Source: a virus. From it: a DNA stretch of 40,609 bases. This document shows positions 2,280-23,135 of this stretch, piece after piece. Location of the stretch: positions 1 to 40,609 of the IMG/VR virus record IMGVR_UViG_3300036900_000496; one strand, 5' to 3'. Both the position numbers and the translations under genes were made by a program. A model generated the notes under the pieces. That model was given only the letters and a program-made list of their open reading frames with translations, was not told the DNA's origin and did not search any database. Position 1 is the first letter of the stretch. Every line of letters begins with the position of its first letter.

Positions 2280-2491
2280 TGCGGATTACAAAAAACATAT
2301 CAAAGGGTGACCAGATCACGAGCATGGATATGCTGGTCACCCTTTCCCGCCAGGGGAAATCGGTTGTCATTGCCTTTGGCGCATGGCATAAGGTATTGCC
2401 AGCTGCTTTCGTAATCGGCATGCCACTCAGAACCGTGCTCAACTATTCCATATTCTTTGCAATAAACCATAATGAGGCTCAAAGTAATTAA
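2279..2491 (+). CDS. Small unknown protein of the recombination module
   Basis: This 70-residue protein is not recognised. It begins inside the recT stop codon (TAATG) and overlaps the following hydrolase gene by 20 bases, so it appears translationally coupled to both. The N-terminal half is polar with several Lys, Ser and Thr residues. The C-terminal half (about residues 35-63) is rich in hydrophobic and aromatic residues, but it contains charged residues nearby and is not a convincing membrane helix. The placement suggests an accessory role in recombination, which is inference from neighbours only. Confidence 0.6.
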   Translation: MRITKNISKGDQITSMDMLVTLSRQGKSVVIAFGAWHKVLPAAFVIGMPLRTVLNYSIFFAINHNEAQSN

Positions 2492-3197
2492 TTCGAACAG
2501 TCTTGGAAATTGCTATATCCTGGAAAACGACCAGGAGGCGCTGATCATCGAATGTGGAGTACAATTCCCCCGGATCAAACAGGCGCTGAATTTTAACACA
2601 AAGAAAGTTGTCGGCTGTATACTTACACATTGCCATGGTGATCATGCGTTTGCTGTAAAAGATGTGATAAAGGCAGGCATTAATATCGCCATGAGTAAAG
2701 GCACTGCAGAAGCATTGCATGTTGACGAGGAGCACCGGGTAAAGATAATTTCCAGTCTTAAAGGGGTCACATTCGGCGGATTTACCATCCTCCCATTTGA
2801 TGTAGAGCATGATGTTCCGGAACCCCTTGGATTCCTGATCAGGCATGCTGACACCGGAACAGTTCTTTTCCTGACTGATACATTTTATGTCAAGCATACA
2901 TTCCCGCCTCTGAACAATATAATAATAGAGTGCAATTATGCCCAGGACATCATTGATAAATCATCCCGGAAGTTTTTAAGGGACCGGGTAATCGAATCCC
3001 ATATGAACCTGGAGACCTGTAAGCAGACGCTTATGGCCAATGACTTAACGAAGGTCAATAACATTGTCCTGATCCATCTGAGCGATTCCAACAGTGATGC
3101 CAAACGTTTCAAACGTGAGGTCCAGGAGCAAACAGGTAAGTGTGTAACCGTGGCAGAGCCAGGACTCAACATCCCATTTACAATCAATCCATTTTGA
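2472..3197 (+). CDS. Metallo-beta-lactamase-fold hydrolase, YycJ-like putative exonuclease
   Basis: The 241-residue protein has the metal-binding HCHGDH motif at residues 53-58. Further likely ligands are H113 (in VEHD), D136 (in LFLTD) and a late His in HLSDSN near residue 202, which matches the HLS-x2-N pattern of the YycJ/WalJ group. Members of this fold near RecT are believed to supply the 5'-3' exonuclease that makes single strands for annealing. Here no other exonuclease is visible in the module, which supports that role by elimination. The start ATG at 2472 lies within the preceding gene, and the stop overlaps the next start (TGATG at 3195). The fold assignment is firm; the DNA substrate is inferred. 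Confidence 0.88.
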   Translation: MRLKVINSNSLGNCYILENDQEALIIECGVQFPRIKQALNFNTKKVVGCILTHCHGDHAFAVKDVIKAGINIAMSKGTAEALHVDEEHRVKIISSLKGVTFGGFTILPFDVEHDVPEPLGFLIRHADTGTVLFLTDTFYVKHTFPPLNNIIIECNYAQDIIDKSSRKFLRDRVIESHMNLETCKQTLMANDLTKVNNIVLIHLSDSNSDAKRFKREVQEQTGKCVTVAEPGLNIPFTINPF

Positions 3198-4145: not shown

Positions 4146-5714
4146 ATGACAGATTTTAAAAATGTACCACTTAGCGAGATCCGTCCGGATCCCAACCAAC
4201 CACGTAAATTCTTTGATCAGGGCGCTCTGGACGAATTAACCAAATCCGTCAGCAAGGATGGCGTTTTGGAGCCAATCATGATCAGGCCTAATGGGAAAGG
4301 ATATATCATTGTTTATGGCGAACGCCGATTCAAAGCTGCTGTTGCGGCGGAATTAAAAGAAATCCCGGCACAGATCCGGGAACTATCCCAGGAAGAAGCT
4401 TTCGAGTTCCAGATAACAGAAAACCTCCACCGGAAGGATGTTCACCCCATGGAAGAGGCAAACTCCTATGATCGCTTACAGAAAAAGGATCCGACAAAAA
4501 ATACGGTAAAGGAGCTGGCCACCAGGTTCGCCAAATCTGAGGGATATGTCATGCAAAGGCTTTCATTCAACAACCTCATTCCCGAATTCCAAAAGGATTT
4601 CTATGAAGGGAAATTCATTACTGGCCATGCCGTCATCCTTTCCAGGTTGACCAAGGATAATCAGCAGATTGTCAAAAAAGACTGCAGAAATGGTTATGGG
4701 ACCCCTGCAGAATTATCGGACTGGATTGATCGGGCAATTGTCCACAGCCTGGCTGAGGCTAAATTCAAACAGGATGATCCGGAACTTCTTCCTTCCGCCG
4801 GCCCATGCACCACTTGCATGAAACGTAGCGGATGTAATCAACTTCTATTCCCTGATATAAAGGCAAAAGACCGTTGTTTTGATAAGCAGTGTTTTGATAA
4901 GAAAACCAGTTTGGCTTTTTCAATAAAGCTGAAGGAGATTATTGAAACAAAACCGGATATCATCCTGGTCCAATCTCCTCACCGGGATTCGAATAAAGAG
5001 GCCGTCGCATTAGCGAAGCAAATGAAAATCAGGGTCCTTGAAGATGGTGAGGATTTCCAGGAGTATAGTTATGGATCATTCAAGAAGAAAGCTCAGGGAT
5101 TTTGGTTAAATAGTTGGTACCAGGGCGAGATTAAAACAATATATCTGAAGGGTGTTACTACTGTAGATAAAAATGGAAAGAAAATAGCATCACCTGAAAA
5201 ACCTGCCGAAGAACAAATTTCGGATATTCAAAGTCGTGAAAAAAGGGCCAAAGAACTTGATGATTCCAAAGTATGGGATGAACTCAAAAAGCATTTCCGG
5301 CCTGAAGTGAATCTTCCTCACATAAAAGGTGAATTCTCGCAAAATGAAAGAGAAGCAATCGCGCAATCTCTCTTTAAAAAACTGGACTACTCCCTTTCAG
5401 ATGCTTTCGAAAAATACTTCAAAATTAAAAATGGAGATTTTTCAAAAGTGGATGCTGCCACACTCAATCAAATGATCAGATATTTTTTCCTTTGCATCCT
5501 TCCTCCCAACGCATTATATGGAGCATTTGATGAAGAGGCATTAGTCTGCATCAAAATCGCAAAGGACTATTTCCCTACTGTAATTAAGGATATCCAGGAT
5601 AAGCAATCCGATATCGCCTCCAAAAGAGCCGAACGTGTTGCTAAACGGATTGCTGATTTAAAGAAAACAATAAAAACTAAGGCCAAACCGCCAATTGCCA
5701 AGATAAAAAAGTAA
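4146..5714 (+). CDS. ParB/Spo0J-like nucleotide- and DNA-binding protein
   Basis: The 522-residue protein opens with a ParB/sulfiredoxin-type domain (about 1-105). It includes PNQPRKFFD, the GERR motif at residues 58-61 (a CTP-binding signature in ParB), and ENLHRKDVHPMEEA at 92-105. A helix-turn-helix region follows at about 119-150 (VKELATRFAKSEGYVMQRLS). A Cys cluster (C221, C224, C229 and two Cys about 15-20 residues further on) suggests a bound metal. The remaining half is not recognised and is lysine-rich at the end. No ParA partner is visible, so segregation is not the obvious role. Phage ParB-like proteins can act in transcription or DNA organisation. The leader is AT-rich without a Shine-Dalgarno sequence. 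Confidence 0.85.
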   Translation: MTDFKNVPLSEIRPDPNQPRKFFDQGALDELTKSVSKDGVLEPIMIRPNGKGYIIVYGERRFKAAVAAELKEIPAQIRELSQEEAFEFQITENLHRKDVHPMEEANSYDRLQKKDPTKNTVKELATRFAKSEGYVMQRLSFNNLIPEFQKDFYEGKFITGHAVILSRLTKDNQQIVKKDCRNGYGTPAELSDWIDRAIVHSLAEAKFKQDDPELLPSAGPCTTCMKRSGCNQLLFPDIKAKDRCFDKQCFDKKTSLAFSIKLKEIIETKPDIILVQSPHRDSNKEAVALAKQMKIRVLEDGEDFQEYSYGSFKKKAQGFWLNSWYQGEIKTIYLKGVTTVDKNGKKIASPEKPAEEQISDIQSREKRAKELDDSKVWDELKKHFRPEVNLPHIKGEFSQNEREAIAQSLFKKLDYSLSDAFEKYFKIKNGDFSKVDAATLNQMIRYFFLCILPPNALYGAFDEEALVCIKIAKDYFPTVIKDIQDKQSDIASKRAERVAKRIADLKKTIKTKAKPPIAKIKK

Positions 5715-5752
5715 GGTCACCCATTTAGTTCATCATAAAAAAAATAACATCA

Positions 5753-6148
5753 ATGAAACTCAATTATTTCTCTTCTCAGACAGTGCCGAAAGGCTATTTC
5801 GGAAACAGCAGTAAGACTGCCAGAGTAGCATTTAATAAAGCGGGAACCATCACGTTCAATCCCTTGGCTCAAAAGGCTTTGGGACTCAAGCAGGGGACAA
5901 AACTTACCCTGGCCCAGGATGAAGACAATCCTCGCGATTGGTATTTCTTCAAGGACGACGAAAATGGATTTGAACTGTCAATGTCATCTGACCAAAAATA
6001 TTTAAAGTTCGGGCACTCAAAACTTATTTCCGCACTCTTCGAAGCCTTTGGTTTTGAGAAGGGAACCAGAGCCTTTGATTTCGATAAAGTGCCTACAGTG
6101 ATGAAGGGGAGCAAAACTGAATACTGGAAAATAATCACAACCGATTAA
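5753..6148 (+). CDS. Unknown conserved-looking phage protein
   Basis: The 131-residue protein is not assigned to a family. A central stretch (TITFNPLAQKALGLKQGTKL) followed by a WYFF segment resembles a small beta-rich domain in which a short helix is followed by a turn of the type seen in AbrB-like or SH3-like folds; this is a weak resemblance. The C-terminal half contains alternating hydrophobic segments ending in YWKIITTD. It has its own 38-base AT-rich leader after parB and shares its stop with the next start (TAATG). Confidence 0.6.
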   Translation: MKLNYFSSQTVPKGYFGNSSKTARVAFNKAGTITFNPLAQKALGLKQGTKLTLAQDEDNPRDWYFFKDDENGFELSMSSDQKYLKFGHSKLISALFEAFGFEKGTRAFDFDKVPTVMKGSKTEYWKIITTD

Positions 6149-6519
6149 TGAGACTCAAAATATTTTCTGCAGAACCAATCCGGGTTAAAGCCATAAAAGT
6201 TAACCCGGTACCGGTTCGGGCTCCGGTGGCTGCAGAAAAGGAAAAGCCAAAGCGAAAAAGGAAGAAGGAGCCTGTAATTCTATCCCGGAAAATTTCGGCT
6301 CCTTCAAGCAAAAACGTTATCAGGGAAAGCGAGAAAAAGCTTCAGACCAGGAAGCTGGATATGACCAAAATGATGTCCGTTAAAATCGATCATAAGACAT
6401 CCATTTTGGTTCCGATCGGTTCAGATCCGGAAGAAGTTAAGAGAAAATATGAACGCCGGACCTCAGTAAATCCACCAGTAAATCATCTTCCATTTCATAA
6501 ACAAATTCCAAAACGATGA
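6148..6519 (+). CDS. Small, very basic unknown protein
   Basis: The 123-residue protein is dominated by Lys, Arg and Pro, with a cluster KPKRKRKKEP at about residues 32-41 and little predicted order in the first half. The second half has a short mixed segment (SVKIDHKTSILVPIGSD) that could form a beta hairpin. The charge suggests nucleic-acid binding, but no motif identifies a family. Its start overlaps the preceding stop, and its end overlaps the next ATG by four bases, so it is embedded in the early operon. Confidence 0.5.
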   Translation: MRLKIFSAEPIRVKAIKVNPVPVRAPVAAEKEKPKRKRKKEPVILSRKISAPSSKNVIRESEKKLQTRKLDMTKMMSVKIDHKTSILVPIGSDPEEVKRKYERRTSVNPPVNHLPFHKQIPKR

Positions 6520-7178
6520 CCAAAAAAGGTTCAAAAGAAAATCCGGTCAGTTCAGAAGAACTCGCCTCTGCAGTTGCAAAAATCAAAACATATCAGCCGT
6601 CTGTTCCTGACAGGTCCTACAGGATCCTGAATGCAACTTTGAAAGATGGATTCGTGAATTACACTTATGAGATCACCGAAGGCGTTGGTCTTGGCGATAT
6701 CCACAGTGTAAAAGGCAAAGGCATTATAAAGGATGACCTGAGCGAAGCCTGGTCCGAAGTAAATATCCATCTGGCTTTGATGGATGACATATTCAAAATC
6801 GGGAAGGTGAAATATTCCAGCATTTCCGAAATCAAGGTCCATGAATATGCCCTTCTTTTCAATCTGACTGGCTTTAAAATATCCGGAGCCTTTGACAGTG
6901 AGTCGATCATTTTAACCGGCACCAAATATATCAAAGGTCTTGGACGGCTGGATATCGAAACCCCGAAGGTTGCCCTGGACAATCTCTCTTCCTATAAGCA
7001 GTTTGCCGACCTGAAATATGTGATCGATTGGGTGCGTGATGAAGTTTCCCTTTACAAGGAAGGCAAATACACACCGGTTGAAACCGAGGACCATGAAGAT
7101 CAGGCTAATCCGAAGCAGATTTCTATGCTGGATGGCATTGGCAACGACAATGATGATTTTGAAAAGGCCAAGGTGTGA
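6516..7178 (+). CDS. Unknown early protein with clamp-motif-like tail
   Basis: The 220-residue protein is not recognised. Residues about 35-190 look like a mixed alpha/beta domain with repeated strand-like segments (for example DGFVNYTYEITEGVGLGDIH). A flexible acidic tail contains KQISMLDG near residue 203, similar to bacterial sliding-clamp binding motifs (Q-x-S-M/L-L/F). It sits directly before the helicase, whose GTG start overlaps its stop. A replication-associated role is plausible from position and tail, but not shown. Confidence 0.6.
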   Translation: MTKKGSKENPVSSEELASAVAKIKTYQPSVPDRSYRILNATLKDGFVNYTYEITEGVGLGDIHSVKGKGIIKDDLSEAWSEVNIHLALMDDIFKIGKVKYSSISEIKVHEYALLFNLTGFKISGAFDSESIILTGTKYIKGLGRLDIETPKVALDNLSSYKQFADLKYVIDWVRDEVSLYKEGKYTPVETEDHEDQANPKQISMLDGIGNDNDDFEKAKV

Positions 7179-8332
7179 GTTTTACTCCTCGACCATATCA
7201 GGCAGAAGCGATCACCAGGGCCGTTGATTTTTTCCAGGAAAAGAAAAAATACAACGCCCTGCAGATCCTGCCGACCGGATCAGGCAAATCTGTCGTAATC
7301 GCAAATATTGCGTCCCGCCTGCAGGGGAAGACAGTCGTATTCCAGCCGTCAAAGGAGATACTGGCACAGAATTTTGCCAAGTTCAGCTCCTATGGTTTCC
7401 GGGCTGGGATATATTCGGCTTCTGCCGGCATGAAGCATATCGATGACGTCACATTTGCAACGATCGGTAGTGTTGCAAAAAAGCATCACCTGTTCAAGCA
7501 ATTTAAATATGGGATCATTGACGAATGTCACCTGGTGAATGCAGATTCTGGAATGTACCGTGATTTCATCGGGGCCATGGATCCATCATTCAAGGTCCTG
7601 GGACTTACGGCGACGCCATACAGGCTGGAATCAAGTTTTGATGGCGCCATGTTGAAATTCCTTAACCGGACCAATCCCAGGATATTCAACAAAGTCAATT
7701 ACTATATTCAAAATGATGTTCTGTTTAATGCCGGGCACCTGGCGAAACTGGAATACTTCAGCTTTGACGTAATCGACCGCGGCCAGCTGGAGATGAACAC
7801 TTCTGGAACTGACTTCACGGACTCCAGCCTTAAGACTTATCTGGCGCAGATTAACATGCCGAAGATCACCGTCGGCTATGCGACCAGGTTACTTCAGAAA
7901 AGGCCAAACCTGTTAATATTCTGTTCCCTGATATCAGAAGCTCAAAAAGTATGTGCCGGCATCCCCGGATCCGTGGTGGTCACCGGTGATACAGAACCCG
8001 GAACCCGGGATCGCATTCTGAGGCAATTTAAAGCCGGTTTAATCAGGTGTGTCATCAACGTGGGTGTTCTTACCACCGGATTCGATTACCCTGAATTAAG
8101 TACGGTCCTGATCGCCAGGTCGACCATGTCTCTTGCATTATACTACCAGATTATTGGCAGATGCATGCGCCCGCATCCAGATAAGCTTTCAGCGTGGGTT
8201 GTAGATCTCGGAGGGAATATCAGATTCTTCGGTAAGATCGAAACCATGAGAATCGAGATCAGCAAAACCGGTCGGTATTCCATATGGAATAATGGCCGGC
8301 AGCTCACAAACGTAAATTTTCAGAAACAATAA
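7175..8332 (+). CDS. Superfamily 2 DEAD/DEAH-type helicase
   Basis: ATP-dependent nucleic-acid translocase or helicase. Motifs are in order: RPYQ (residues 6-9), Walker A PTGSGKS (33-39), DECH (116-119), TATPYR (145-150), a second RecA-like domain with GVLTTGFDYPEL (about 296-307), and motif VI QIIGRCMRP (325-333). At 385 residues it is compact, close to the RecQ-like/UvsW-like minimal core, with no extra domain. The start is GTG at 7175, overlapping the previous stop. It likely acts in phage DNA replication or recombination. Confidence 0.9.
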   Translation: MSFTPRPYQAEAITRAVDFFQEKKKYNALQILPTGSGKSVVIANIASRLQGKTVVFQPSKEILAQNFAKFSSYGFRAGIYSASAGMKHIDDVTFATIGSVAKKHHLFKQFKYGIIDECHLVNADSGMYRDFIGAMDPSFKVLGLTATPYRLESSFDGAMLKFLNRTNPRIFNKVNYYIQNDVLFNAGHLAKLEYFSFDVIDRGQLEMNTSGTDFTDSSLKTYLAQINMPKITVGYATRLLQKRPNLLIFCSLISEAQKVCAGIPGSVVVTGDTEPGTRDRILRQFKAGLIRCVINVGVLTTGFDYPELSTVLIARSTMSLALYYQIIGRCMRPHPDKLSAWVVDLGGNIRFFGKIETMRIEISKTGRYSIWNNGRQLTNVNFQKQ

Positions 8333-8355
8333 AACTCACCCGTTAATTCTAAATC

Positions 8356-8673
8356 ATGGAAAACAAGGAAGTACAATTGTTTAAGGTAGGTCACCTGGTT
8401 AAGCTCAAGCAAAGGCTTGGATTCGAGCCGGCCGGCATCTACTGCTTAGTATATGAAAACTATGATATGCCCGGCAGGACAGGGATCAGCGTGATCACCA
8501 TCAATGGGGTGAACCTGGGTGGATTCTCACTCAGTGAACAACTTCGGATGTTCTCTTTTGTCAGGGACTCCGGTGTGAAATACAATTTCACCAATTCAGC
8601 TCAGCTCCGGATGGACTGGAAAGCCGGATATCTGAAGGAGGCATTCTTAACCCCGAAACATCTGCAAAAATGA
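8356..8673 (+). CDS. Unknown protein, first of a tandem paralogue pair
   Basis: The 105-residue protein is clearly related to the next gene. Both share LVKLKQ or LVRLKQ near the N-terminus, VYENY, an INGVNLGGFS or ENGVDLGGFS block and a following EQ. Sequence alternates short strands and turns, suggesting a small beta barrel (KOW/SH3-like guess). Its 23-base leader is AT-rich. The last bases overlap the next start (ATGA). Function unknown; it lies between the helicase and the replication initiator. Confidence 0.6.
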   Translation: MENKEVQLFKVGHLVKLKQRLGFEPAGIYCLVYENYDMPGRTGISVITINGVNLGGFSLSEQLRMFSFVRDSGVKYNFTNSAQLRMDWKAGYLKEAFLTPKHLQK

Positions 8674-8996
8674 TCCATCAATATTCCCCGATCTCTCAGG
8701 GATCATTGGTAAGGTTAAAACAATCGTTCTGTAAAGAGCCGATCGGCACGCTTGCCTTTGTTTATGAAAATTATTCCCTGGGTGAGGGCCGCTGGAATGG
8801 CGTTAGCCTGATCACGGAGAATGGCGTGGATCTCGGAGGATTCTCCGAACGTGAACAGGTTGACTTTCTTGAAAACGTCACCCAAACAGGATTTCGGTAC
8901 CGGTTTATCAATATGATGCAGCTGGGCGAAGACTTCGAAAATGGAGTATTCAAAGAAGTATTTGAAAACAGAAAATCCACGATGAGAATAGCATGA
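8670..8996 (+). CDS. Unknown protein, second of a tandem paralogue pair
   Basis: The 108-residue protein shares with its upstream neighbour the order LVRLKQ, VYENY, then a GVSLITENGVDLGGFSEREQ block and a C-terminal aromatic/acidic segment ending in an FENGVFKEVF helix. The DNA of the two genes is well diverged, so the duplication is old or the copies were acquired separately. Both starts and stops overlap neighbours (ATGA), so the pair is co-translated with the replication gene that follows. Confidence 0.6.
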   Translation: MIHQYSPISQGSLVRLKQSFCKEPIGTLAFVYENYSLGEGRWNGVSLITENGVDLGGFSEREQVDFLENVTQTGFRYRFINMMQLGEDFENGVFKEVFENRKSTMRIA

Positions 8997-10120
8997 AGAA
9001 TAATCTATCATATGTCCGTCATGACGTGAACAGCCACAACCATTGGAAGTTTAAGACTCTCCGGAAAAAGATGGGTTGGGCTGCCGAAGGAAAGTTTTGG
9101 GCCCTTAATAACATGATAGCTGCTTCCGATGGCGGAATACTGGACCTGAATGATGAAATAAAAAGGGTTTCCATCGCAGTTGATCTTGATTTTGAGCTTC
9201 CTGAATTCGATGAATTCATCCAATTTTTAATCAAATCATGTCGACTGCTGGTCGACGTCGACGGAAAAGTATCCAATGGAATTGTCCAGGAAACACTTGA
9301 AGAAGTTAATAGTAAAAGGGAGCGCCAGCGTAATTGGAAAAAGGAAAAATCCGTGTCGAAATTAGAAGAATCGACGCATAAAATCCAAAAGTCGACGTCG
9401 ACTAATGGAAAGTCGATAGTCGAAAATGAACAAAGTAAATTAAATAAGAATAAAGTAAATAAAAGTAAAGTAGTTATAGGGGCACCTGCGGTGCCAACCG
9501 CCAAAAGAGTTTTTAATGTACCCGAAAAGGATGAGATAAGATCCTATTTCAAAACTTTAATTGGTGATTCAACTAAGCCAGGATCCTGGCCTGAAGATAA
9601 ATGCAACCTGGAAGCAGATAGTCTGCTCGACCATTATACCGCAAACGGCTGGTCACAGGGCCGCGGAAAACCAATCAAAGACTGGAAAGCAGCTTGCCGG
9701 AACTGGATCAGAAATGCATTGAAAGGAAATTTTTCGCCCGTTTCTGGAAATAATTCCGCCATTTCTGGAAATAAAATACAGAAATCTGAAACAATTGTAC
9801 AGAAAATCGATACACCTGTACAGCAAATCGATAAAACGGCACGTGAAATCAATTATCTGTTTTCCAGATATATGGAAAATCCTGAGCACTGTACCACTAT
9901 CAGCGTGGAAACGGTACAGTATGACTACCTGAAACAAAAGGGCATGATAAAATTCAGCCAGGAGAAAACAGAGCAGATCCGGTCAGCTGCTCACACCGCT
10001 ATCGCCGAGAAAGGCATCCAGCTGGATGAAATAAGGGAAAAAATATTCATGAAGAAAATTGCTGTGATTGAATTTTTTAAGGATTTCCAGGCATCGGGTA
10101 AGGAGGCCATATTCTCATGA
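8993..10120 (+). CDS. DUF4373-like replication initiator (Lin1244/Lin1753-like N-terminus)
   Basis: The 375-residue protein starts with a domain (about 1-95) resembling DUF4373, with HDVNSHNHWKFKTLRKKMG, a GILDLNDEIKR segment and IQFLIKSCRLL. It is followed by a polar Ser/Lys/Asn linker (about 110-165), a second helical region with a GRGKPIKDWKAACRNWIRNAL block (about 222-242) and a C-terminal helical tail. This layout is typical of phage replication organisers (lambda O-like in role) from Bacteroidota and Firmicutes phages. The gene contains dense GTCGA motifs and 21-base repeats, described separately, which may form the origin. It overlaps genes on both sides by four bases. Confidence 0.75.
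   Translation: MKNNLSYVRHDVNSHNHWKFKTLRKKMGWAAEGKFWALNNMIAASDGGILDLNDEIKRVSIAVDLDFELPEFDEFIQFLIKSCRLLVDVDGKVSNGIVQETLEEVNSKRERQRNWKKEKSVSKLEESTHKIQKSTSTNGKSIVENEQSKLNKNKVNKSKVVIGAPAVPTAKRVFNVPEKDEIRSYFKTLIGDSTKPGSWPEDKCNLEADSLLDHYTANGWSQGRGKPIKDWKAACRNWIRNALKGNFSPVSGNNSAISGNKIQKSETIVQKIDTPVQQIDKTAREINYLFSRYMENPEHCTTISVETVQYDYLKQKGMIKFSQEKTEQIRSAAHTAIAEKGIQLDEIREKIFMKKIAVIEFFKDFQASGKEAIFS
9240..9424. repeat. Cluster of GTCGA/GTCGAC motifs in the initiator gene
   Basis: Eight GTCGA pentamers begin at 9240, 9251, 9257, 9355, 9391, 9397, 9412 and 9419, plus ATCGAC at 9370. Five are full palindromic GTCGAC. The 12-mer GTCGACGTCGAC occurs twice (9251-9262 and 9391-9402) in two different reading frames (Val-Asp-Val-Asp and Ser-Thr-Ser-Thr), so the encoded protein alone does not explain it. 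An A-rich, C-poor stretch follows (9425-9480). This could be an initiator-binding or strand-opening region, or a site for another DNA-binding protein. Confidence 0.55.
9741..9845 (+). repeat. Degenerate 21-base tandem repeats (iteron-like) in the initiator gene
   Basis: Five units begin at 9741, 9762, 9783, 9804 and 9825. Units 1 and 2 share TTTCTGGAAATAA exactly. At a phase shifted by seven bases, TGTACAG-A/C-AAATCGATA recurs at 9796 and 9817 with one mismatch in 17. In protein the units give a seven-residue repeat (ISGNKIQ, KSETIVQ, KIDTPVQ). Spacing of 21 bases equals two helical turns, and iterons of similar size inside the initiator gene are established for lambda O. Binding by the DUF4373-type protein is inference. 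Confidence 0.55.
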
Positions 10121-10593
10121 AACAGAATACCAGGTTTACACTTAAGGATGCGCAGGTCCTGCTGAATACCGGAAAAATCCGGGGTTATTCAGAACTGGTT
10201 GTAAAGAAAAATGCTCTTCCGGAAGTTGGTGGCCGGAAAGTCGGAAAGCATTTTAGCCGGAAAAGTAAAGGCCTGGATTATATCGCCAAGAATATTTTCT
10301 ACTGGTGTCAGGCCAAGGCCCTGGTCCTGGAAGAGGAATATAAGTTTCACCCGGAAAGGAAATGGCGTTTTGATTTTGCCATCCCTTCTCTGAAATGTGC
10401 TGTTGAGTTTAACGGTGGAGTATTCGATCGGAACGGCAGCCATACCAGTCTGGAAAAAATCGGGAAGGACAATGAGAAGCTGAATGCTGCTTCCGTCCTG
10501 GGATGGAAGGTCTTGAGATATACGGCAGATGATTATGAGAGCCTGGTAGGGGAACTGGATATCGTTTTTAATCTGGCTCAAAATGGAATTTGA
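10117..10593 (+). CDS. PD-(D/E)XK-like endonuclease, possible Holliday-junction/DUF559-type
   Basis: The 158-residue protein has a nuclease-like core: FHPERKWRFDFAIP with D86, then LKCAVEFNGG with E97, then GSHTS and a helix KDNEKLNAASVLGW leading into KVLRYT. The D-x10-E-x-N/G layout and closing W-x-V-L-R strand match restriction-endonuclease-like folds such as Vsr/DUF559 and phage junction resolvases. The first 55 residues are basic and may bind DNA. Placement directly after the replication initiator suggests processing of branched DNA, but substrate cannot be determined. Overlaps: ATGA with the initiator, 11 bases with the next gene. Confidence 0.7.
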   Translation: MKQNTRFTLKDAQVLLNTGKIRGYSELVVKKNALPEVGGRKVGKHFSRKSKGLDYIAKNIFYWCQAKALVLEEEYKFHPERKWRFDFAIPSLKCAVEFNGGVFDRNGSHTSLEKIGKDNEKLNAASVLGWKVLRYTADDYESLVGELDIVFNLAQNGI

Positions 10594-10864
10594 AATACAG
10601 CTGTGGTTGCGAGGTTATTTATTTACGTCAGGGATAGTGTCAGTTCCAGATTTTGATGATCGGATGAGTCATCAGAAAAATCAGGAGTACCGGGAGTCCT
10701 TGGTTAAATCGGAATGCCTGAAGATGAAAGCGATATACAGCCGGCAGATCGATAAGTGTGAAGGGAAATATACCATGTACATCCAGCTGCCGTCCAAAAT
10801 GAGGTTTATACCGGTTGACGAAGGGGATGAAATAATAACATCTAAAATAGATAACGATGAATGA
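10583..10864 (+). CDS. Small unknown protein
   Basis: The 93-residue protein is not recognised. It has a polar, charged central helix (about 28-55) and a C-terminal segment YTMYIQLPSKMRFIPVDEGD that reads as two beta strands. It starts inside the nuclease gene and overlaps the following gene by eight bases, so it belongs to the replication operon. No metal-binding or catalytic motif is seen. Confidence 0.55.
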   Translation: MEFEIQLWLRGYLFTSGIVSVPDFDDRMSHQKNQEYRESLVKSECLKMKAIYSRQIDKCEGKYTMYIQLPSKMRFIPVDEGDEIITSKIDNDE

Positions 10865-11084
10865 TCCGCACAGCTTACTGGTTTTTAAAGTGGACAAAAA
10901 TAGCGCAAATGAAAAGTTCTATACGATTGAGCTGCATGGATGCCCAACCTGCGCTATCCGGGCCATAAAACAGGCGCTTCTTAACCATCCGAGCATTAAG
11001 CTGCTGATCAAGGAAGCGGTCCACCAGGCGAACCTGGAGCTGGCGAAGGATAAACCGAATACACCGAATCCGAATATGAACTGA
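10857..11084 (+). CDS. Small unknown protein, last gene of the replication operon
   Basis: The 75-residue protein has a strand-rich N-terminus (LLVFKVDK, FYTIELHG), a CPTC pair at about residues 29-32 and a helix (IRAIKQALLNHPSIKLLIKE) followed by a Pro/Asn tail. A single CxxC could be a half-site for zinc or a redox pair, but no family is recognised. A 119-base non-coding gap follows, the first clear break after 8355, so the replication operon probably ends here. Confidence 0.55.
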   Translation: MNDPHSLLVFKVDKNSANEKFYTIELHGCPTCAIRAIKQALLNHPSIKLLIKEAVHQANLELAKDKPNTPNPNMN

Positions 11085-11203
11085 GGCGAAAACGACTTGG
11101 GTACCCTTTAACAAGTAAATGAAAAGGGAAACGGCCGGCCTAAAGCAAAGACGTACTTAAAAGCCGGCTGATTTTTAAAATTTCAAATTTTCAATTTATA
11201 ACC
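11085..11203 (+). other. Intergenic region with two potential hairpins
   Basis: No gene is seen. CCCTTT (11104-11109) can pair with AAAGGG (11123-11128) across a 13-base loop. GCCGGC at 11134-11139 can pair with GCCGGC at 11163-11168 across 23 bases; the latter is followed by TGATTTTT, so this second structure could act as a weak terminator. An AT-rich leader (TTTAAAATTTCAAATTTTCA) precedes the next ATG. The gap plausibly separates the replication operon from the accessory genes and may hold a promoter, though no clear TAnnTTTG/TTTG pair is present. Confidence 0.4.
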
Positions 11204-11584
11204 ATGGAAGTATCAATCGCAGCCACGCTCACATTTGGAATAGAGGAATGCTGTGCATGCGGCATCAAATTCGGTATCCCACTGCAAATCCAAAAAAACC
11301 TTCGAGAAAGCCATAAATCATTCTATTGTCCTAACGGTCATGGCCAGTCTTATGCCGGCAAATCCGAGGCTGAAAAGCTCCGCGATGAGCTGAAACGAAA
11401 AGAAGCCGAAATGGCCCAGGTCGTTGAAGAAAAATGGAATGAGCGGGCTCGGGCTGATCAGGCGGAGCGGAAACTGAAAAGGGTTCACAAAGGGACCTGC
11501 CCCTGTTGTAATCGCAGCTTCCAGAATCTGGCCAATCACATGAAAACAAAGCATCCTGAAATTGTCAAACCCGCAAAAAAATAA
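11204..11584 (+). CDS. Zinc-finger protein with coiled-coil centre
   Basis: The 126-residue protein has an N-terminal zinc-ribbon-like part (CCACG near residues 14-18 and YCPNGHG near 44-50), a charged helix of about 40 residues (AEKLRDELKRKEAEMAQVVE and onward) likely to be a coiled coil, and a C-terminal C2H2 finger. In the finger CPCC is followed by NRSFQNLANH and MKTKH, giving C-x2-C-x9-H-x4-H. Such proteins bind nucleic acid or protein. Bacterial C2H2 fingers of this short form occur in phage proteins, but the role here is unknown. Confidence 0.75.
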   Translation: MEVSIAATLTFGIEECCACGIKFGIPLQIQKNLRESHKSFYCPNGHGQSYAGKSEAEKLRDELKRKEAEMAQVVEEKWNERARADQAERKLKRVHKGTCPCCNRSFQNLANHMKTKHPEIVKPAKK

Positions 11585-11600
11585 CCGCTAAAACTCAGTT

Positions 11601-11975
11601 ATGCAATACAGTCCGAAACTTAAAATGGCCATGGAGGAAATCAAGATAATTCTGGCAAAACACGATATCGCGGCTTCCGTGGTCCTGCATACCCCAGGCC
11701 ACTCCGAATTCCTGGTCAAGGTAAATCCCTCCTATTCCTGCGCGAAGTTGGAGAATGACCGGTTTGTCGTAAAGATCAAAGCCTCTCATTACAACGATGA
11801 CAAGATTGCCCGGGATAAAATAGTGGCCGATACGTCCAATATGATGATGCACCTGGCTGGATCCACCGGCAACCTTGCACAGAATCTTTATCAAATGTCC
11901 AATTCGCTGGATCGGGCTGTTAATGCTGAACATACATCCGGAGAAACATCATCTCATACTCAACAAAACAACTGA
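11601..11975 (+). CDS. Unknown accessory protein
   Basis: The 124-residue protein is not recognised. It has an N-terminal helix (KLKMAMEEIKIILAKHDI), two strand-like segments (ASVVLHTP and EFLVKVNPS), a conserved-looking DRFVVKIKASHY block and a Met/Ser/Asn-rich helix followed by a disordered Ser/Thr/Gln tail. It begins 16 bases after the zinc-finger gene and is two bases before the next start. Predicted cytoplasmic; no signal peptide. Confidence 0.55.
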   Translation: MQYSPKLKMAMEEIKIILAKHDIAASVVLHTPGHSEFLVKVNPSYSCAKLENDRFVVKIKASHYNDDKIARDKIVADTSNMMMHLAGSTGNLAQNLYQMSNSLDRAVNAEHTSGETSSHTQQNN

Positions 11976-11977
11976 TC

Positions 11978-12280
11978 ATGAGAGTTCTATGCATAAATGA
12001 AAAAGGCTGGGAAACAAAAGTAAAGGGGATCCCGGGTGAGCCTTTTGTCAAAGTACCTGGTCCTCTCTACGGCGAGGTTTACGAAGTGGTAAATGAAGGG
12101 GTCACCGGTAGCCAGCGATACTACGAGCTCGAGTCCTGGCCAGACATAAAATGGTGCGCAGAATGTTTCATTCCAATATCGGATATCGACGAAACAGAAT
12201 TCGAAAGGTATAAGCAAAAGCAATTTGTTCCCTGGCCAGCCGATAAGGCAATCTCTCACTTTAAAAAATACGCTCAATGA
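11978..12280 (+). CDS. Unknown accessory protein, beta-rich
   Basis: The 100-residue protein carries short strands and turns (GPLYGEVYEVVNEG, RYYELESWPDIKW) suggestive of a small barrel, followed by an IPISDIDETEFERY segment and a basic C-terminal helix. It resembles in style, not in sequence, the paralogue pair at 8356-8996. It overlaps the following lipoprotein-like gene by four bases (ATGA), coupling it to the envelope cassette. Confidence 0.55.
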   Translation: MRVLCINEKGWETKVKGIPGEPFVKVPGPLYGEVYEVVNEGVTGSQRYYELESWPDIKWCAECFIPISDIDETEFERYKQKQFVPWPADKAISHFKKYAQ

Positions 12281-12831
12281 AATCAGAAAAGGTAATTCAG
12301 GTAAGCATTTGCATACTTGCCATTTTAATATTGCTCGGTGTCCTGGCGTCCGGGTGCCGGTCGAAAAAACCCGATGTCCCGCATTTGGAATTAACGGCAT
12401 CCCTTGGCTCTCACCAGCTGGAGCAGGTAAAAGATTCGGCTGAGATTAGGAAAATCGAACATTTTATCGACAGTTGCGAAAGCAGCCCAGGTAAATGCGC
12501 TTCCAAGGATACTTCAATCGCGGTTTGGAAAACTGGATTCACTCTGATTGATGAAAACCGGGTAACAGAAGACTCAGCTGTCCAAGGCAGATATGATTCC
12601 ATCCGATACTGCCTGTATGGGTATCAAAAAGTCCCGGAAAAAGGAATGATCGCCCTCCGGAAGGATTATAAAGATGATTGGGATGATATCAAGGAAACAG
12701 CCGTTTTTATGGATGGTCACATGATACATATGTACCGGGAAATTGTCTGGCACAATCGGAGTGGCACGGGAGGTAGAATTGATTCGTTCACGGACTACAA
12801 ATATTTATCACAGCTAATAAAGAACAAATGA
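12277..12831 (+). CDS. Putative lipoprotein, first of the envelope cassette
   Basis: The 184-residue protein starts with a short basic stretch, a hydrophobic segment (VSICILAILILLGVLA) and SGC at about residue 27, resembling a lipobox, so it is probably a lipoprotein. The mature part is polar with four or more Cys (including SCESSPGKC) and no recognised domain. Such proteins in phages may block superinfection or alter the host surface. It overlaps its neighbours by four bases on each side. The lipobox is not a perfect match (Ala at -3), so a plain anchored protein is possible. Confidence 0.65.
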   Translation: MKSEKVIQVSICILAILILLGVLASGCRSKKPDVPHLELTASLGSHQLEQVKDSAEIRKIEHFIDSCESSPGKCASKDTSIAVWKTGFTLIDENRVTEDSAVQGRYDSIRYCLYGYQKVPEKGMIALRKDYKDDWDDIKETAVFMDGHMIHMYREIVWHNRSGTGGRIDSFTDYKYLSQLIKNK

Positions 12832-13247
12832 AACGAACTACCATCGAAGGAATCATATCAGTAATTTTTGTCTTTGCCCTTCTGTTCTTTTCCAGTCAGT
12901 GTAATGCCCAAACAGATAGCCCGTGGAAAACAATTAACTCAGGCAACGATTCTGCCTGGAAAATTTTAGGCGGGACAAGTGTATCCGGCACGCATCCCTA
13001 TTCAATTTTTGACTATAAGCCTGTTCAGAACATCTGGATCTCCTGGGATACCTGCACGCTGGAATATTTCCGATCGCAAAAGGAGATGGAGGATATTAAA
13101 AAGGCATCTTGGAGAGCTTGGGCGAATGCCGATACCGTCCGGTTTATCGTCCCTCCAAAGCACATGATCATCGGAAATAATTCATATACCTCGATGTTCC
13201 TGAATGGTACTTGGTATTTTTTAATGGATCCAACAAACTTGAAATGA
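12828..13247 (+). CDS. Putative secreted protein with Q-rule signal peptide
   Basis: The 139-residue protein has a hydrophobic N-terminal segment (IISVIFVFALLFF) followed by SSQCNAQ, with probable cleavage between Ala27 and Gln28. Cleavage before glutamine is characteristic of Bacteroidota secreted proteins. The mature part is Trp-rich (seven or more Trp) and contains WISWDTCTLEYFR and TWYFLMD segments, suggesting a compact beta-rich domain. Function unknown. Overlaps with both neighbours (ATGA) indicate one transcript with the rest of the cassette. Confidence 0.65.
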   Translation: MKRTTIEGIISVIFVFALLFFSSQCNAQTDSPWKTINSGNDSAWKILGGTSVSGTHPYSIFDYKPVQNIWISWDTCTLEYFRSQKEMEDIKKASWRAWANADTVRFIVPPKHMIIGNNSYTSMFLNGTWYFLMDPTNLK

Positions 13248-13792
13248 AGTCTTTGCTGCCCCTTTTATTCTTTTTCCAAATCGCCCATGGTCAGGAGGAT
13301 CGGCCATGGGTCAGAAAATCCACTTCCGGATATAATGATACCATTTACCATACCGTGATTGGCGTTTACTCACGCCCGGTGGAGGAAAGGACTTGGATTT
13401 ACCGATACGCTCTGGACAGTGTTCCGCATGAAGTTATTGCGCCGAAAGTGATTCTCCAGATCGATTCTCACCGCCTGGTTTCCAGCTCTCCTGATCTCTT
13501 TACAAGCTCGCCCATTATCGTAGGGATGGGAACCTGGGATAATTCACCACCTAAAATTGGATCCGGCCGGAAAACTCACTTAAGGCATTCAAAAAAACGC
13601 AAGCGCAGGTTTAAGTATACTTGGACCTCGGTCCCGGGAACCTTAAAAAAGCCTCGTATGAGAATAAAAATATTTTGGGGTACAAAAATGCCATCGGGTG
13701 AATTGGTCGAGGTAACCGATTTCAACGGAACATTCAAACAATGGGACAGCATTGGCCGGGAATACATTTTACATAAAAAATACTTTCAATGA
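13244..13792 (+). CDS. Putative secreted basic protein with Q-rule signal peptide
   Basis: The start is ATG 13244, which overlaps the previous stop; the longer in-frame reading from 13211 would put the signal peptide inside the protein. The 182-residue product has MKSLLPLLFFFQIAHG followed by Gln17, a likely signal peptide cut before Gln. The middle (about 108-135) is very basic, with HSKKRKRRFKYTW, an unusual feature for an exported protein. The end contains GTFKQWDSIGREYILHKKYF. No family is recognised. Confidence 0.6.
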   Translation: MKSLLPLLFFFQIAHGQEDRPWVRKSTSGYNDTIYHTVIGVYSRPVEERTWIYRYALDSVPHEVIAPKVILQIDSHRLVSSSPDLFTSSPIIVGMGTWDNSPPKIGSGRKTHLRHSKKRKRRFKYTWTSVPGTLKKPRMRIKIFWGTKMPSGELVEVTDFNGTFKQWDSIGREYILHKKYFQ

Positions 13793-14058
13793 AAAATTTA
13801 ATCATCGGACTGATCACATCGATCACCCTGATTTTCGGATTGTTTTGGCTTTTGTCCTCAGGGATCGGATGTAAGAAATCCAATAAAATGCATGGCTTTT
13901 ATCTGGAATTTGAGCGCTATGCAGATTCATCACACAAGTACTTGTCCATCGATCCGGATTTATCCTACAGGTACTGGGATACAGCAATTATGAAGAGTGA
14001 CAGCTTCGATTATTATTATAACCAGCAGGCTATCAGCAAATTATTCCCCGCGAAATGA
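13789..14058 (+). CDS. Putative small lipoprotein or membrane-anchored protein
   Basis: The 89-residue protein starts with a long hydrophobic segment (LIIGLITSITLIFGLFWLLS) and SGIGCKKS at about residue 28, which may be a poor lipobox or simply the end of a transmembrane helix. The mature part is Tyr- and Asp-rich (YADSSHKYLSIDPDLSYRYW). It overlaps its neighbours by four bases, as do all members of this cassette. Function unknown. Confidence 0.6.
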   Translation: MKNLIIGLITSITLIFGLFWLLSSGIGCKKSNKMHGFYLEFERYADSSHKYLSIDPDLSYRYWDTAIMKSDSFDYYYNQQAISKLFPAK

Positions 14059-14447
14059 AACAATTCAGCCAACCACCAGAGGCCTTGATTCTCACCATGC
14101 CGGTCGCGTTTTTTAAGGACCGTGGAATATTCGAGGATAAGTTTTTCGAATTGTTCGAAAGGTATATGAGGCGTGAGGATGCGTTGTGGAATTTCAGAAA
14201 GACTCAATTGCCTACGCAGGATGTTGCCTGGGTGTATCTTCTTTGGTCCGGACAAATTCAGTTTCGGTTAAATTTTGTTCAATATGAAAGGAATGTCTCC
14301 AAAACTTTTGATGATTCTTGGGATGGGAAAGCCAGGATATTCCCGGTTAGCAACTGGATCATCCTTTCCGGGCCCGCGGTGCCGGCACCATACTGGATGC
14401 CGATGAAAGGATTCCAAGGTCATCGTTACACTCAAAAGCTATTTTAA
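14055..14447 (+). CDS. Unknown phage protein closing the envelope cassette
   Basis: The 130-residue protein lacks a signal peptide. It has an N-terminal helical half (FEDKFFELFERYMRREDALW) and a beta-rich second half with WVYLLWSGQIQFRLNFVQY, then GPAVPAPYWMPMKGFQGHRY. From memory, the closing KGFQG-RYT pattern recurs in Bacteroidota phage proteins of unknown function. It overlaps the lipoprotein gene but is likely cytoplasmic. A 205-base non-coding gap follows. Confidence 0.6.
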   Translation: MKQFSQPPEALILTMPVAFFKDRGIFEDKFFELFERYMRREDALWNFRKTQLPTQDVAWVYLLWSGQIQFRLNFVQYERNVSKTFDDSWDGKARIFPVSNWIILSGPAVPAPYWMPMKGFQGHRYTQKLF

Positions 14448-20513: not shown

Positions 20514-21992
20514 ATGAACAAAATCGCAATAGCCGGAAAAGAATTGATGAAGGGTAATTTCGGAAATGCCATCATGAGTTTGGCAACTAAATCGGTCACT
20601 TCAGAACTCATTCAACCTTCCCGTTGGCGCAACGGGAATTTCTTTTTTGGGATAAACGGATCCGACAAAGCTTTTATATGGGGGAATTACAACAGCTCCC
20701 TTATCGCCTATCAGAAAAATCCAATCGTTTCCGGTATCATCAATAAGATGGCTCAGGCCACGGTCAATGGTGTGCAGAAGATCATGACTGATCAGAAAAA
20801 GGAAGCGAACACTACTCAAGCAAAATCTTTAACCAAGCTTCTCCGGAAGCCGAATTATATACAGACTGGCCGGCAGTTCATGGCCCAGGGGAATGTCTAT
20901 AAAAGAATTTATGGTTACTGCCCTATCCTGGTCATAAAGCCGGTTGGATTTGAAACCGACTACAGCCGGTGGAAGCTCTGGAACATTCCACCATGGATGA
21001 TCCAGGTAGAGGACCTGCCTGATATGTTTTTCACAACAACGAATGGCAGTCCGTTCAAACGGATCACGCTCACTTATATGGGTCGCAGCATTAACCTGCC
21101 TCTCGATTCTGTTTTCTTCATAAGGGAGAACCAGGTGAGTACCGGGATGTACATGATGAACAGTGCGATTGAAAACGTTTCTCTATTCCTGCCGGATAGC
21201 AAATTATTCCCGCTTGAAAAACCAATCGATAATTTAATCGCGTCATTGAACAGTCGCGGATCACTCACCCGTAACCGCGGACCACAATGGATCCTCACCA
21301 ATGACAGTAGTGATTCCGGTGAAGCCGGATTATTCCCAATTGATGAAGAGGATAAAAATGAGCTGCATGCAGACTTCCTGCAATACGGAATCATGGATGG
21401 CCAGCGTAAGGCTATTATCACAGATGCCAAACTGAAACTTCAGACGGTCGGCTTCGACGTTCAGCAGCTGAAGCTTCTCGAAGGTGAGCTGCAGGATGCA
21501 AAGATGATCTGTGATGGTCTGAATTATCCACCATACCTGCTCGGCCTGGTCGATGCAAAATTCGATAACCAGGACATCGCTGAACGCGCCCTTTATACAA
21601 ATTCGATTATCCCGGATAAGGCCAGCGATGACGAGCAGTGGGAAGAAATATTCGGGCTTTCTGATTCTGGACTGTCCCTGCAGACGGATTACACTCACCT
21701 GCCGGCACTCCAGGAGAACGTCACTGAGCAGGGCAAAGGTCGGTGGTATATGAACCAGGCTTTGCTGATCGAATTCCAAAATGATCTACTGACGTGGAAT
21801 GAATGGCGGGAAAGACTCGGTGAGGATACGAAGCCAGGAATGGATCTGTATTACAGCGACCTGGTCAAAGCTGGCCGCATAGTTCCGGCGCCAACAGCTC
21901 CAGCTGGAGGACCAAATGTATCCAGCGATTCACAAAGTTCAAGTTCAAATTCTAATAGTAGTTCTAATAGTAACTCTAATAGTAATGGGTAA
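20514..21992 (+). CDS. Portal protein
   Basis: The 492-residue protein is assigned as portal from position between terminase and protease and from its sequence: an N-terminal segment with WGNYNSSLIAYQKNPIVSGI (residues about 48-75), a middle with NRGPQWILTNDSSDSGEAGL, and QQLKLLEGELQDAKMICDGL then NYPPYLLG, which resembles the alpha-helical crown/stem region of HK97-like portals. Start chosen at ATG 20514 rather than GTG 20490, because the latter lies in the terminator-like hairpin. The tail is a Ser/Asn repeat encoded by 12-base DNA repeats. It forms the dodecameric ring for DNA entry. Confidence 0.85.
   Translation: MNKIAIAGKELMKGNFGNAIMSLATKSVTSELIQPSRWRNGNFFFGINGSDKAFIWGNYNSSLIAYQKNPIVSGIINKMAQATVNGVQKIMTDQKKEANTTQAKSLTKLLRKPNYIQTGRQFMAQGNVYKRIYGYCPILVIKPVGFETDYSRWKLWNIPPWMIQVEDLPDMFFTTTNGSPFKRITLTYMGRSINLPLDSVFFIRENQVSTGMYMMNSAIENVSLFLPDSKLFPLEKPIDNLIASLNSRGSLTRNRGPQWILTNDSSDSGEAGLFPIDEEDKNELHADFLQYGIMDGQRKAIITDAKLKLQTVGFDVQQLKLLEGELQDAKMICDGLNYPPYLLGLVDAKFDNQDIAERALYTNSIIPDKASDDEQWEEIFGLSDSGLSLQTDYTHLPALQENVTEQGKGRWYMNQALLIEFQNDLLTWNEWRERLGEDTKPGMDLYYSDLVKAGRIVPAPTAPAGGPNVSSDSQSSSSNSNSSSNSNSNSNG
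21951..21984 (+). repeat. 12-base tandem repeat encoding the portal Ser/Asn tail
   Basis: TCTAATAGTA occurs at 21951, 21963 and 21975 with exact 12-base spacing. It encodes a Ser-Asn-Ser-Asn/Ser tail and runs directly into the ATG of the next gene (21985). Copy-number change would alter the tail by four residues without a frameshift and leave the next start intact. Confidence 0.7.
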
Positions 21993-22281
21993 AAAAAAGA
22001 AACTCAAAGCGATTAAATCACTGGCCAATAAGATGGCCCTGATCAACGGTTTTCATACTGAGTCGCATTGGGTGAAAGGTTCTGAGATCCTTTCCTGGGG
22101 TACGATCAAAGAGATCGCAGGGAAACCGATCGATCCGGATAAAATGTATGATGTCCCTATGCCGGTCATGATGGTTCAGAATAACCAGAGGCGGATGAAG
22201 CGGGCATGTCTGAAATATGGTATCGATGGGATGAAGCACCTGCTCGAAGAGAATCTTAAAAGTGTAGCACACAATATTTAA
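21985..22281 (+). CDS. Small basic unknown protein
   Basis: Start chosen at ATG 21985, which overlaps the portal stop; the longer reading from 21916 would lie inside the repeat tail. The 98-residue protein is basic at the start (GKKKKLKAIKSLANK) and has GSEILSWGTIKEIAGKPIDP and a long terminal helix. A structural or packaging accessory role is possible from position. Not recognised otherwise. Confidence 0.6.
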   Translation: MGKKKKLKAIKSLANKMALINGFHTESHWVKGSEILSWGTIKEIAGKPIDPDKMYDVPMPVMMVQNNQRRMKRACLKYGIDGMKHLLEENLKSVAHNI

Positions 22282-22285
22282 TCAT

Positions 22286-22426
22286 ATGTCAACCGATAAC
22301 AAAAACAAAACTGATCAGCCGGTAAAACCCAAGGAAGAAAAACCAAAGGTGGACCGTGGATCCCTGGAAGCTCAAAAAGCCATCAAGGACCACCAGGTTA
22401 AAACCGGAGAAATCATTCGCAAATAA
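22286..22426 (+). CDS. Very small lysine-rich protein
   Basis: A 46-residue frame begins at ATG 22286, four bases after the preceding stop, and its TAA overlaps the next ATG (TAATG). The product is rich in Lys, Asp and Gln, with repeated KPK/KEEKPK motifs and a C-terminal helix ending HQVKTGEIIRK. The tight packing on both sides supports it as a real gene. Function unknown. Confidence 0.6.
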   Translation: MSTDNKNKTDQPVKPKEEKPKVDRGSLEAQKAIKDHQVKTGEIIRK

Positions 22427-22773
22427 TGCAAAAGCACTGCATATATAATTTTCGGGATGCCAAACGTGGTGACACTTTCAATGATGTTGAGTTTGTCCTA
22501 AAGCTCAATCATACACCGAAGGACCTGACCGGGTGTACCATCCGGATGTGGTTCGTGGATCCGAAGACAAATCAGAAGGCTCAGGAATTCACTACGACCA
22601 ACGGTGGCCTTGTGATCACTGATGCTGTGAATGGTGCATTCAAAACGGCGCTGGGTGTTCTCGTGCTAACACCCAAAAAATACAGTTACGATATCGAATT
22701 CGATTTCATTGATGGCGTGATCAAGACTTATATATCCGGAGAAATAAATATCGTGAACGATTGGACCAAGTAA
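22426..22773 (+). CDS. BppU-like N-terminal-domain protein (tail/baseplate style)
   Basis: The 115-residue protein has the pattern RGDTFNDVEFVLKLN, then DLTGCTIRMWFVDPKTNQKA and a closing YSYDIEFDFIDGVIKTYISG. This layout resembles the N-terminal domain of BppU-type baseplate proteins, a beta sandwich that attaches receptor-binding parts. As a stand-alone domain here it may be a small adaptor for the long repetitive protein downstream. It overlaps its neighbour by one base upstream and the next frame by 13 bases. Confidence 0.6.
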   Translation: MQKHCIYNFRDAKRGDTFNDVEFVLKLNHTPKDLTGCTIRMWFVDPKTNQKAQEFTTTNGGLVITDAVNGAFKTALGVLVLTPKKYSYDIEFDFIDGVIKTYISGEINIVNDWTK

Positions 22774-23135
22774 CAGTAAATATTACAGAGCGGCCTGAAC
22801 TGGTAACCATCCTGGTCAATGAAGTACTGGGCAAAGATGGGCTACCTGGTGGTAATGGAATTCTTCTGCCTGATGCGACTGACGCATCATTCACAATGAC
22901 GCTGAATGCGCAGATACATATTCCAAGAGGAGTTCTCACGCAGGCCCGGCAGATAACTATTCCAGCTGGAGTTGATGGCAATTTCATGGAGATCTATAAT
23001 AACGAGATCGTGTATCCCTGGAACCTGATCGGCACCCCGGTTTATTTCTCGGATGAATCAGTCGTAAGTCAGCTGGATGGGAATTATAACTATCTGATCA
23101 AAAAAATTTCGGGCAAGTGGAGAATATTAAACTAA
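22761..23135 (+). CDS. Unknown structural-like protein
   Basis: The 124-residue protein starts at TTG 22761; no earlier ATG exists in this frame and the first residues (DQVTVNITERPELVTILVNE) are beta-rich. The middle has GKDGLPGGNGILLPDATDAS and the end GNYNYLIKKISGKWRILN. The short Gly-rich run and beta-strand style match phage tail-fibre accessory proteins. It sits between the BppU-like domain and the repetitive protein, so the three may work together. Confidence 0.55.
   Translation: MDQVTVNITERPELVTILVNEVLGKDGLPGGNGILLPDATDASFTMTLNAQIHIPRGVLTQARQITIPAGVDGNFMEIYNNEIVYPWNLIGTPVYFSDESVVSQLDGNYNYLIKKISGKWRILN

Follow-up and report, generated by a model that had tools for sequence, protein, structure and literature searches.

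Four coupled genes for exported proteins in a variable slot of a Bacteroidota phage, with a possible role in modifying the host envelope from inside

Results

Layout of the phage record

The window, i.e., the whole stretch of DNA analysed, coincides with a whole viral record, linear and 40,609 bases long, and this record is a tailed phage of Bacteroidota. It has genes for a ParB-like protein (at 4146), a helicase (7175), a replication-initiation-like protein (8993), TerL (17925), a portal protein (20490) and a maturation protease (25714; weak match), and tail proteins are also recognisable. TerL has its relatives mostly among phages and prophages of Bacteroidota. By comparison with the related phage G003, the left end of the record cuts an SbcC-like gene; its right end lies within the tail module.

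Other features of the record and its relatives were noted. The MBL-fold hydrolase encoded at 2472-3197 is 60% identical to its counterpart in G003 and, in Pfam, matches the anti-Pycsar protein Apyc1 weakly and below threshold (19.3 bits for a cut-off of 50). Two adjacent ORFs of 105 and 108 aa (8356-8996) look like diverged tandem duplicates, with YENY and LGGFS stretches in both. Between the portal and protease genes, an 841-aa repeat-rich protein (23140-25665) carries a Sec signal peptide whose cleavage would leave Gln as the +1 residue, and large fibre-like proteins with Sec signals are encoded in the related phages G002 (21196-23022) and G003 (5273-7207, 7517-10834 and 10845-13259). In five loci of Mucilaginibacter and other Bacteroidetes (L095, L105, L109, L124 and L127), a recurring gene that lies a few kb past the match to TerL, on its downstream side, encodes an exported protein of some 340 aa containing a stretch like PTSIRGLSVVDD; this gene may belong to the host DNA or be cargo conserved among prophages. 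Finally, L003 (PP511318.1), a tailed phage whose genome of 35.8 kb contains terminase, portal and tail sheath genes, is recorded as Microviridae, which looks like a taxonomy error.

Four overlapping genes encode exported proteins

Four consecutive genes of the + strand encode proteins with export signals. lip1 (12277..12831) encodes a lipoprotein of 184 aa, with a hydrophobic N terminus, a LASGC lipobox and a mature part of 158 aa starting at CRSKKP. sec2 (12828..13247) and sec3 (13244..13792) encode exported soluble proteins of 139 and 182 aa, whose predicted SPI sites (NA|QTDSPW and HG|QEDRPW) both expose a Gln at +1 and leave mature parts of 112 and 166 aa, that of sec3 being basic (pI about 10). 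lip4 (13789..14058) encodes a small lipoprotein of 89 aa, with an SGIGC lipobox and a mature part of 62 aa starting at CKKSNK. The next gene, 14055 (14055..14447, +), encodes a cytoplasmic protein of a small phage family. Lipoboxes and SPI sites were called with a simple script and by eye, not with SignalP, and these calls are heuristic. For sec3, the longest ORF starts from a TTG at 13211, and it is with the ATG at 13244 as start that a clean signal peptide is obtained.

For all five ORFs from 12277 to 14055, their own frame scores best when the codon model is trained, leave-one-out, on the remaining genes. The four overlapping exported genes reported in the initial annotation are thus recovered, with their ORFs, export signals and coding in frame. 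Its ATGA start/stop overlaps are also all present, at every junction from 12277 to 14055 as well as between the 11978-12280 ORF and lip1, but they are not distinctive, as four-base overlaps account for 14 of the window's 42 junctions. Among the four proteins (hereafter the quartet), no homology is detectable beyond a short N-terminal resemblance of sec2 and sec3 (blastp E 0.001, in a comparison of seven sequences). A scan for promoters and terminators gave matches at shuffle level only, the single match to a Bacteroidota-type promoter pattern is at chance level, and no match to Rfam or to tRNAs was found.

The proteins exposing Gln are in line with the Q-rule of Bacteroidetes, whereby SPI cleavage exposes this residue (PMC5837995). 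As both SPI substrates of the quartet fit this rule, the host is placed in Bacteroidota. Elsewhere in the window, such an export signal is carried by the 23140 protein only. In Bacteroidota, surface export of lipoproteins needs an overall negative charge just after the Cys, the LES (PMC5080379). The residues following the lipidated Cys are basic in both lip1 (CRSKKP) and lip4 (CKKSNK), so that a periplasm-facing position is the better prediction for both. On these residues, lip1 and lip4 should sit on the periplasmic face, which argues against a surface shield.

The run of four is unusual. With 5 of the 52 ORFs of the window scored as exported, a run of at least four arises in 0.09% of label permutations (p about 0.001, in a post hoc test). 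Across 167 related loci, export was called for 6% of the ORFs, and never for more than two in succession. Exported orphans are a common kind of gene in the accessory slots of phages, although four in a row are unusual.

The quartet occupies a variable slot and 14055 is its neighbour

Two landmarks flank this region. On the left, the 10117..10593 gene (+) belongs to a Vsr/HNH-like nuclease family (phrog_503) and has homologues in L013, L015, L172 and L173; on the right, the 14653..15351 gene (+) encodes an ASCH-like protein (phrog_874, E 2.7e-69) with homologues in L013, L172 and others. In L172 and L173, as in the window, the 10117-like nuclease gene is followed by variable genes and then by 14055 or its homologue, and in L172 the ASCH-like gene comes next, again as in the window. 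These two homologues, the only relatives of 14055, are 56% (L172) and 52% (L173, truncated) identical to the window protein, and the quartet is absent from both phages. Between nuclease and 14055 homologue, L172 has HNH genes and one unrelated secreted protein following the Q-rule, and L173 has methylase and HNH genes. L013, which has the nuclease and ASCH landmarks, contains no exported gene between them. Since the genes between the landmarks differ among relatives, the slot is variable; what fills it in this phage is the quartet, next to which 14055 lies without being a member.

On this comparison, the quartet is a lineage-specific insert in a variable slot, and 14055 is an independent phage gene, translationally linked to the exported set and lying outside it. 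The earlier description of an envelope-targeted accessory cassette between replication and packaging genes is supported, but the cytoplasmic 14055 protein, proposed to close it, has to be removed from it because its relatives occur without the quartet. Searches with 14055 gave no PDB relative (with the 14055 alignment) and no match in 395 genomes. Weak 14055 matches in Mucilaginibacter loci were rejected, as they belong to another family with only about 25 residues in common.

Searches for relatives of the quartet

Searches of Pfam, PHROGs, PADLOC and NCBIfam gave no homologue for any of the four proteins. No PADLOC model of known anti-phage defence matches the cassette proteins, and lip1 and sec3 have no relative among PDB sequences. 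No believable relative of the quartet was found in viral contigs, phages, plasmids and sampled Bacteroidia genomes, and no homologue of sec3 in a genome-contig scan or in the genomes of one family. The scans of single-protein collections used six exact 8-residue patterns, so that distant relatives would be missed by them. Nor does the cassette occur in any of the 44 related viral records, which were searched over their full length.

Some weak matches were obtained. lip4 gives a sub-threshold match to Pfam DUF1374 (19.6 bits for a cut-off of 21). Its match in phage NatCom_35866 was rejected, being inside a 2.9-kb gene for a large unrelated protein with no cassette around, and quartet matches with an E of about 1e-3 per genome among the 395 genomes were taken as chance. 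Structure prediction was of no help, the AlphaFold2 models made without an alignment being unusable (pLDDT of 40 for lip1 and 32 for sec3).

Lysis genes of two relatives lie after the tail genes

In lambdoid phages, lysis genes are kept between replication and packaging genes. The position of the quartet is the same, two of its members are lipoproteins and no endolysin or holin is recognised elsewhere in the window, all of which would suit the idea, put forward in the initial annotation, of an unrecognised lysis or spanin set fitted to the Bacteroidota envelope. However, neither holin nor endolysin is found in the cassette itself, and no lysis family is recognised in the window. As the window ends before the lysis region of the relatives, the missing lysis genes are uninformative as such. 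In two relatives, recognisable lysis genes are found after the tail genes. G002, the record of L010, whose TerL is 42% identical to that of the window phage and which has portal and tail genes in common with it, encodes an Amidase_2 endolysin (5e-10; phrog_822, 3e-34) just after the tail and fibre genes; the endolysin gene itself is preceded by two small genes. Similarly, G444, the record of L172, which has tail genes in common with the window phage, has a weak Rz-like spanin match (3.5e-4) and several small membrane proteins after the fibre gene.

The topology of the quartet proteins also argues against a spanin set. An i-spanin has an uncleaved N-terminal TM segment and a periplasmic domain, often a coiled coil, an o-spanin is a short, often proline-rich lipoprotein, and a unimolecular spanin combines a lipobox with a C-terminal TM segment (PMC6139136). 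sec2 and sec3 are predicted to be cleaved by SPI and have neither an uncleaved anchor nor a further hydrophobic segment, and C-terminal TM segments are absent from the whole quartet, the maximum 19-residue hydropathy being 0.32 in mature lip1 and -0.36 in mature lip4. lip4 is short and contains 2 Pro in its 62 mature residues. T4-type o-spanins are likewise without proline-rich regions (PMC6139136), so that proline content alone is not decisive. With no second hydrophobic segment and two prolines in lip4, the quartet nonetheless falls mostly outside the definitions of spanins. Given the place of the relatives' lysis genes and the absence of a clear spanin topology, we do not favour the lysis idea, which is unlikely, with perhaps a slim chance of being right.

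Discussion

Gene order, export signals, coding and slot variability are read directly from the sequence. Our tentative interpretation, to which we would give somewhat less than an even chance, is that 12277-14058 is a lineage-specific operon whose four exported proteins modify the envelope from inside, superinfection exclusion being the favoured form. The accessory operon would have been inserted in the slot between the Vsr/HNH-like nuclease gene and the 14055 and ASCH genes. Its four proteins would be made together via coupled translation and all be exported by the host Sec pathway; sec2 and sec3 would become soluble periplasmic proteins with an N-terminal Gln or pyroglutamate, and lip1 and lip4, in which the acidic export signal is missing, would be lipoproteins kept facing the periplasm. 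In the favoured form, a small periplasmic lipoprotein would bind a receptor of the outer membrane, in the way that T5 Llp binds FhuA; alternatively, the operon could have a broader periplasmic role in host takeover or counter-defence. The periplasmic facing, joint action and exclusion function are what we infer here. As the quartet has no homologue and no usable structure, none of its proteins can be tied to a receptor or a pathway. Moreover, exclusion usually takes one gene, and four are a point against this model. The earlier proposal of surface exclusion or host modification is thus kept in part: exclusion is plausible, whereas the surface part is at odds with the lack of an acidic signal in lip1 and lip4.

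A stronger version, which we consider rather improbable, is that the quartet forms one new periplasmic complex, with two lipid-anchored and two soluble subunits, remodelling the Bacteroidota envelope. Such a complex would, for example, jam SusC/TonB-type transporters or block an envelope-based defence.

The four genes could also be unrelated exported morons lying side by side, each acting alone in host fitness, periplasmic stress or defence inhibition. The lack of homology within the set, apart from the short sec2/sec3 stretch, is in keeping with this, and relatives carry other small lipoproteins or secreted proteins singly or in pairs, as L172 does in the same slot; four in a row with strict coupling nevertheless exceed this single or paired background. 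This explanation is about as likely as our favoured interpretation, and we would stop a little short of rating it an even bet. It is, finally, very improbable that the quartet encodes parts of the virion, or proteins needed to build it, that are exported because assembly takes place in the envelope. As precedents one could cite the large fibre-like proteins that carry Sec signals in the window (23140) and in relatives (G002, G003), but the quartet lies outside the structural module, its proteins are small orphans, and it is absent from relatives with the same tail and head genes.

Accessory genes directed at the envelope have been little studied in Bacteroidota phages, and the quartet is without relatives in the libraries and collections searched. 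The present analysis gives the set a clear boundary, namely four genes, with 14055 excluded and lysis set aside. If the favoured operon were indeed to hit outer-membrane receptors from inside, Llp-type exclusion would be extended to a phylum in which TonB-dependent transporters abound.

The quartet can be compared with three known systems. It resembles two-component and unimolecular spanins (Rz/Rz1, T1 gp11) in having lipoproteins whose genes overlap neighbouring exported genes, and differs from them in having no uncleaved inner-membrane partner, proline-rich region or C-terminal TM segment. Like the moron genes of Bacteroidota phages, it has a variable slot, a restricted distribution and exported products, the difference being that four exported genes form one coupled run. 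The third is that of the Llp/Cor-type superinfection-exclusion lipoproteins. T5 Llp, a phage lipoprotein with about 61 residues in its mature form, binds the periplasmic face of FhuA and locks this TonB-dependent receptor (PMC9586334), a precedent with which a periplasm-facing quartet is compatible as regards exclusion from inside. lip4 is, like Llp and Cor, small, endowed with a lipobox and predicted to face the periplasm, with 62 mature residues as against about 61 in Llp; it differs in having no family match in PHROGs or Pfam (DUF1374 being sub-threshold). Llp is furthermore encoded by a single gene adjoining that of the receptor-binding protein, whereas the quartet comprises four genes, and it has a Cys11-Cys58 disulfide, of a type impossible in lip4, whose only Cys is the lipid-bearing one. 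The likeness of lip4 to Llp is thus, by analogy, one of predicted location and size, not of homology.
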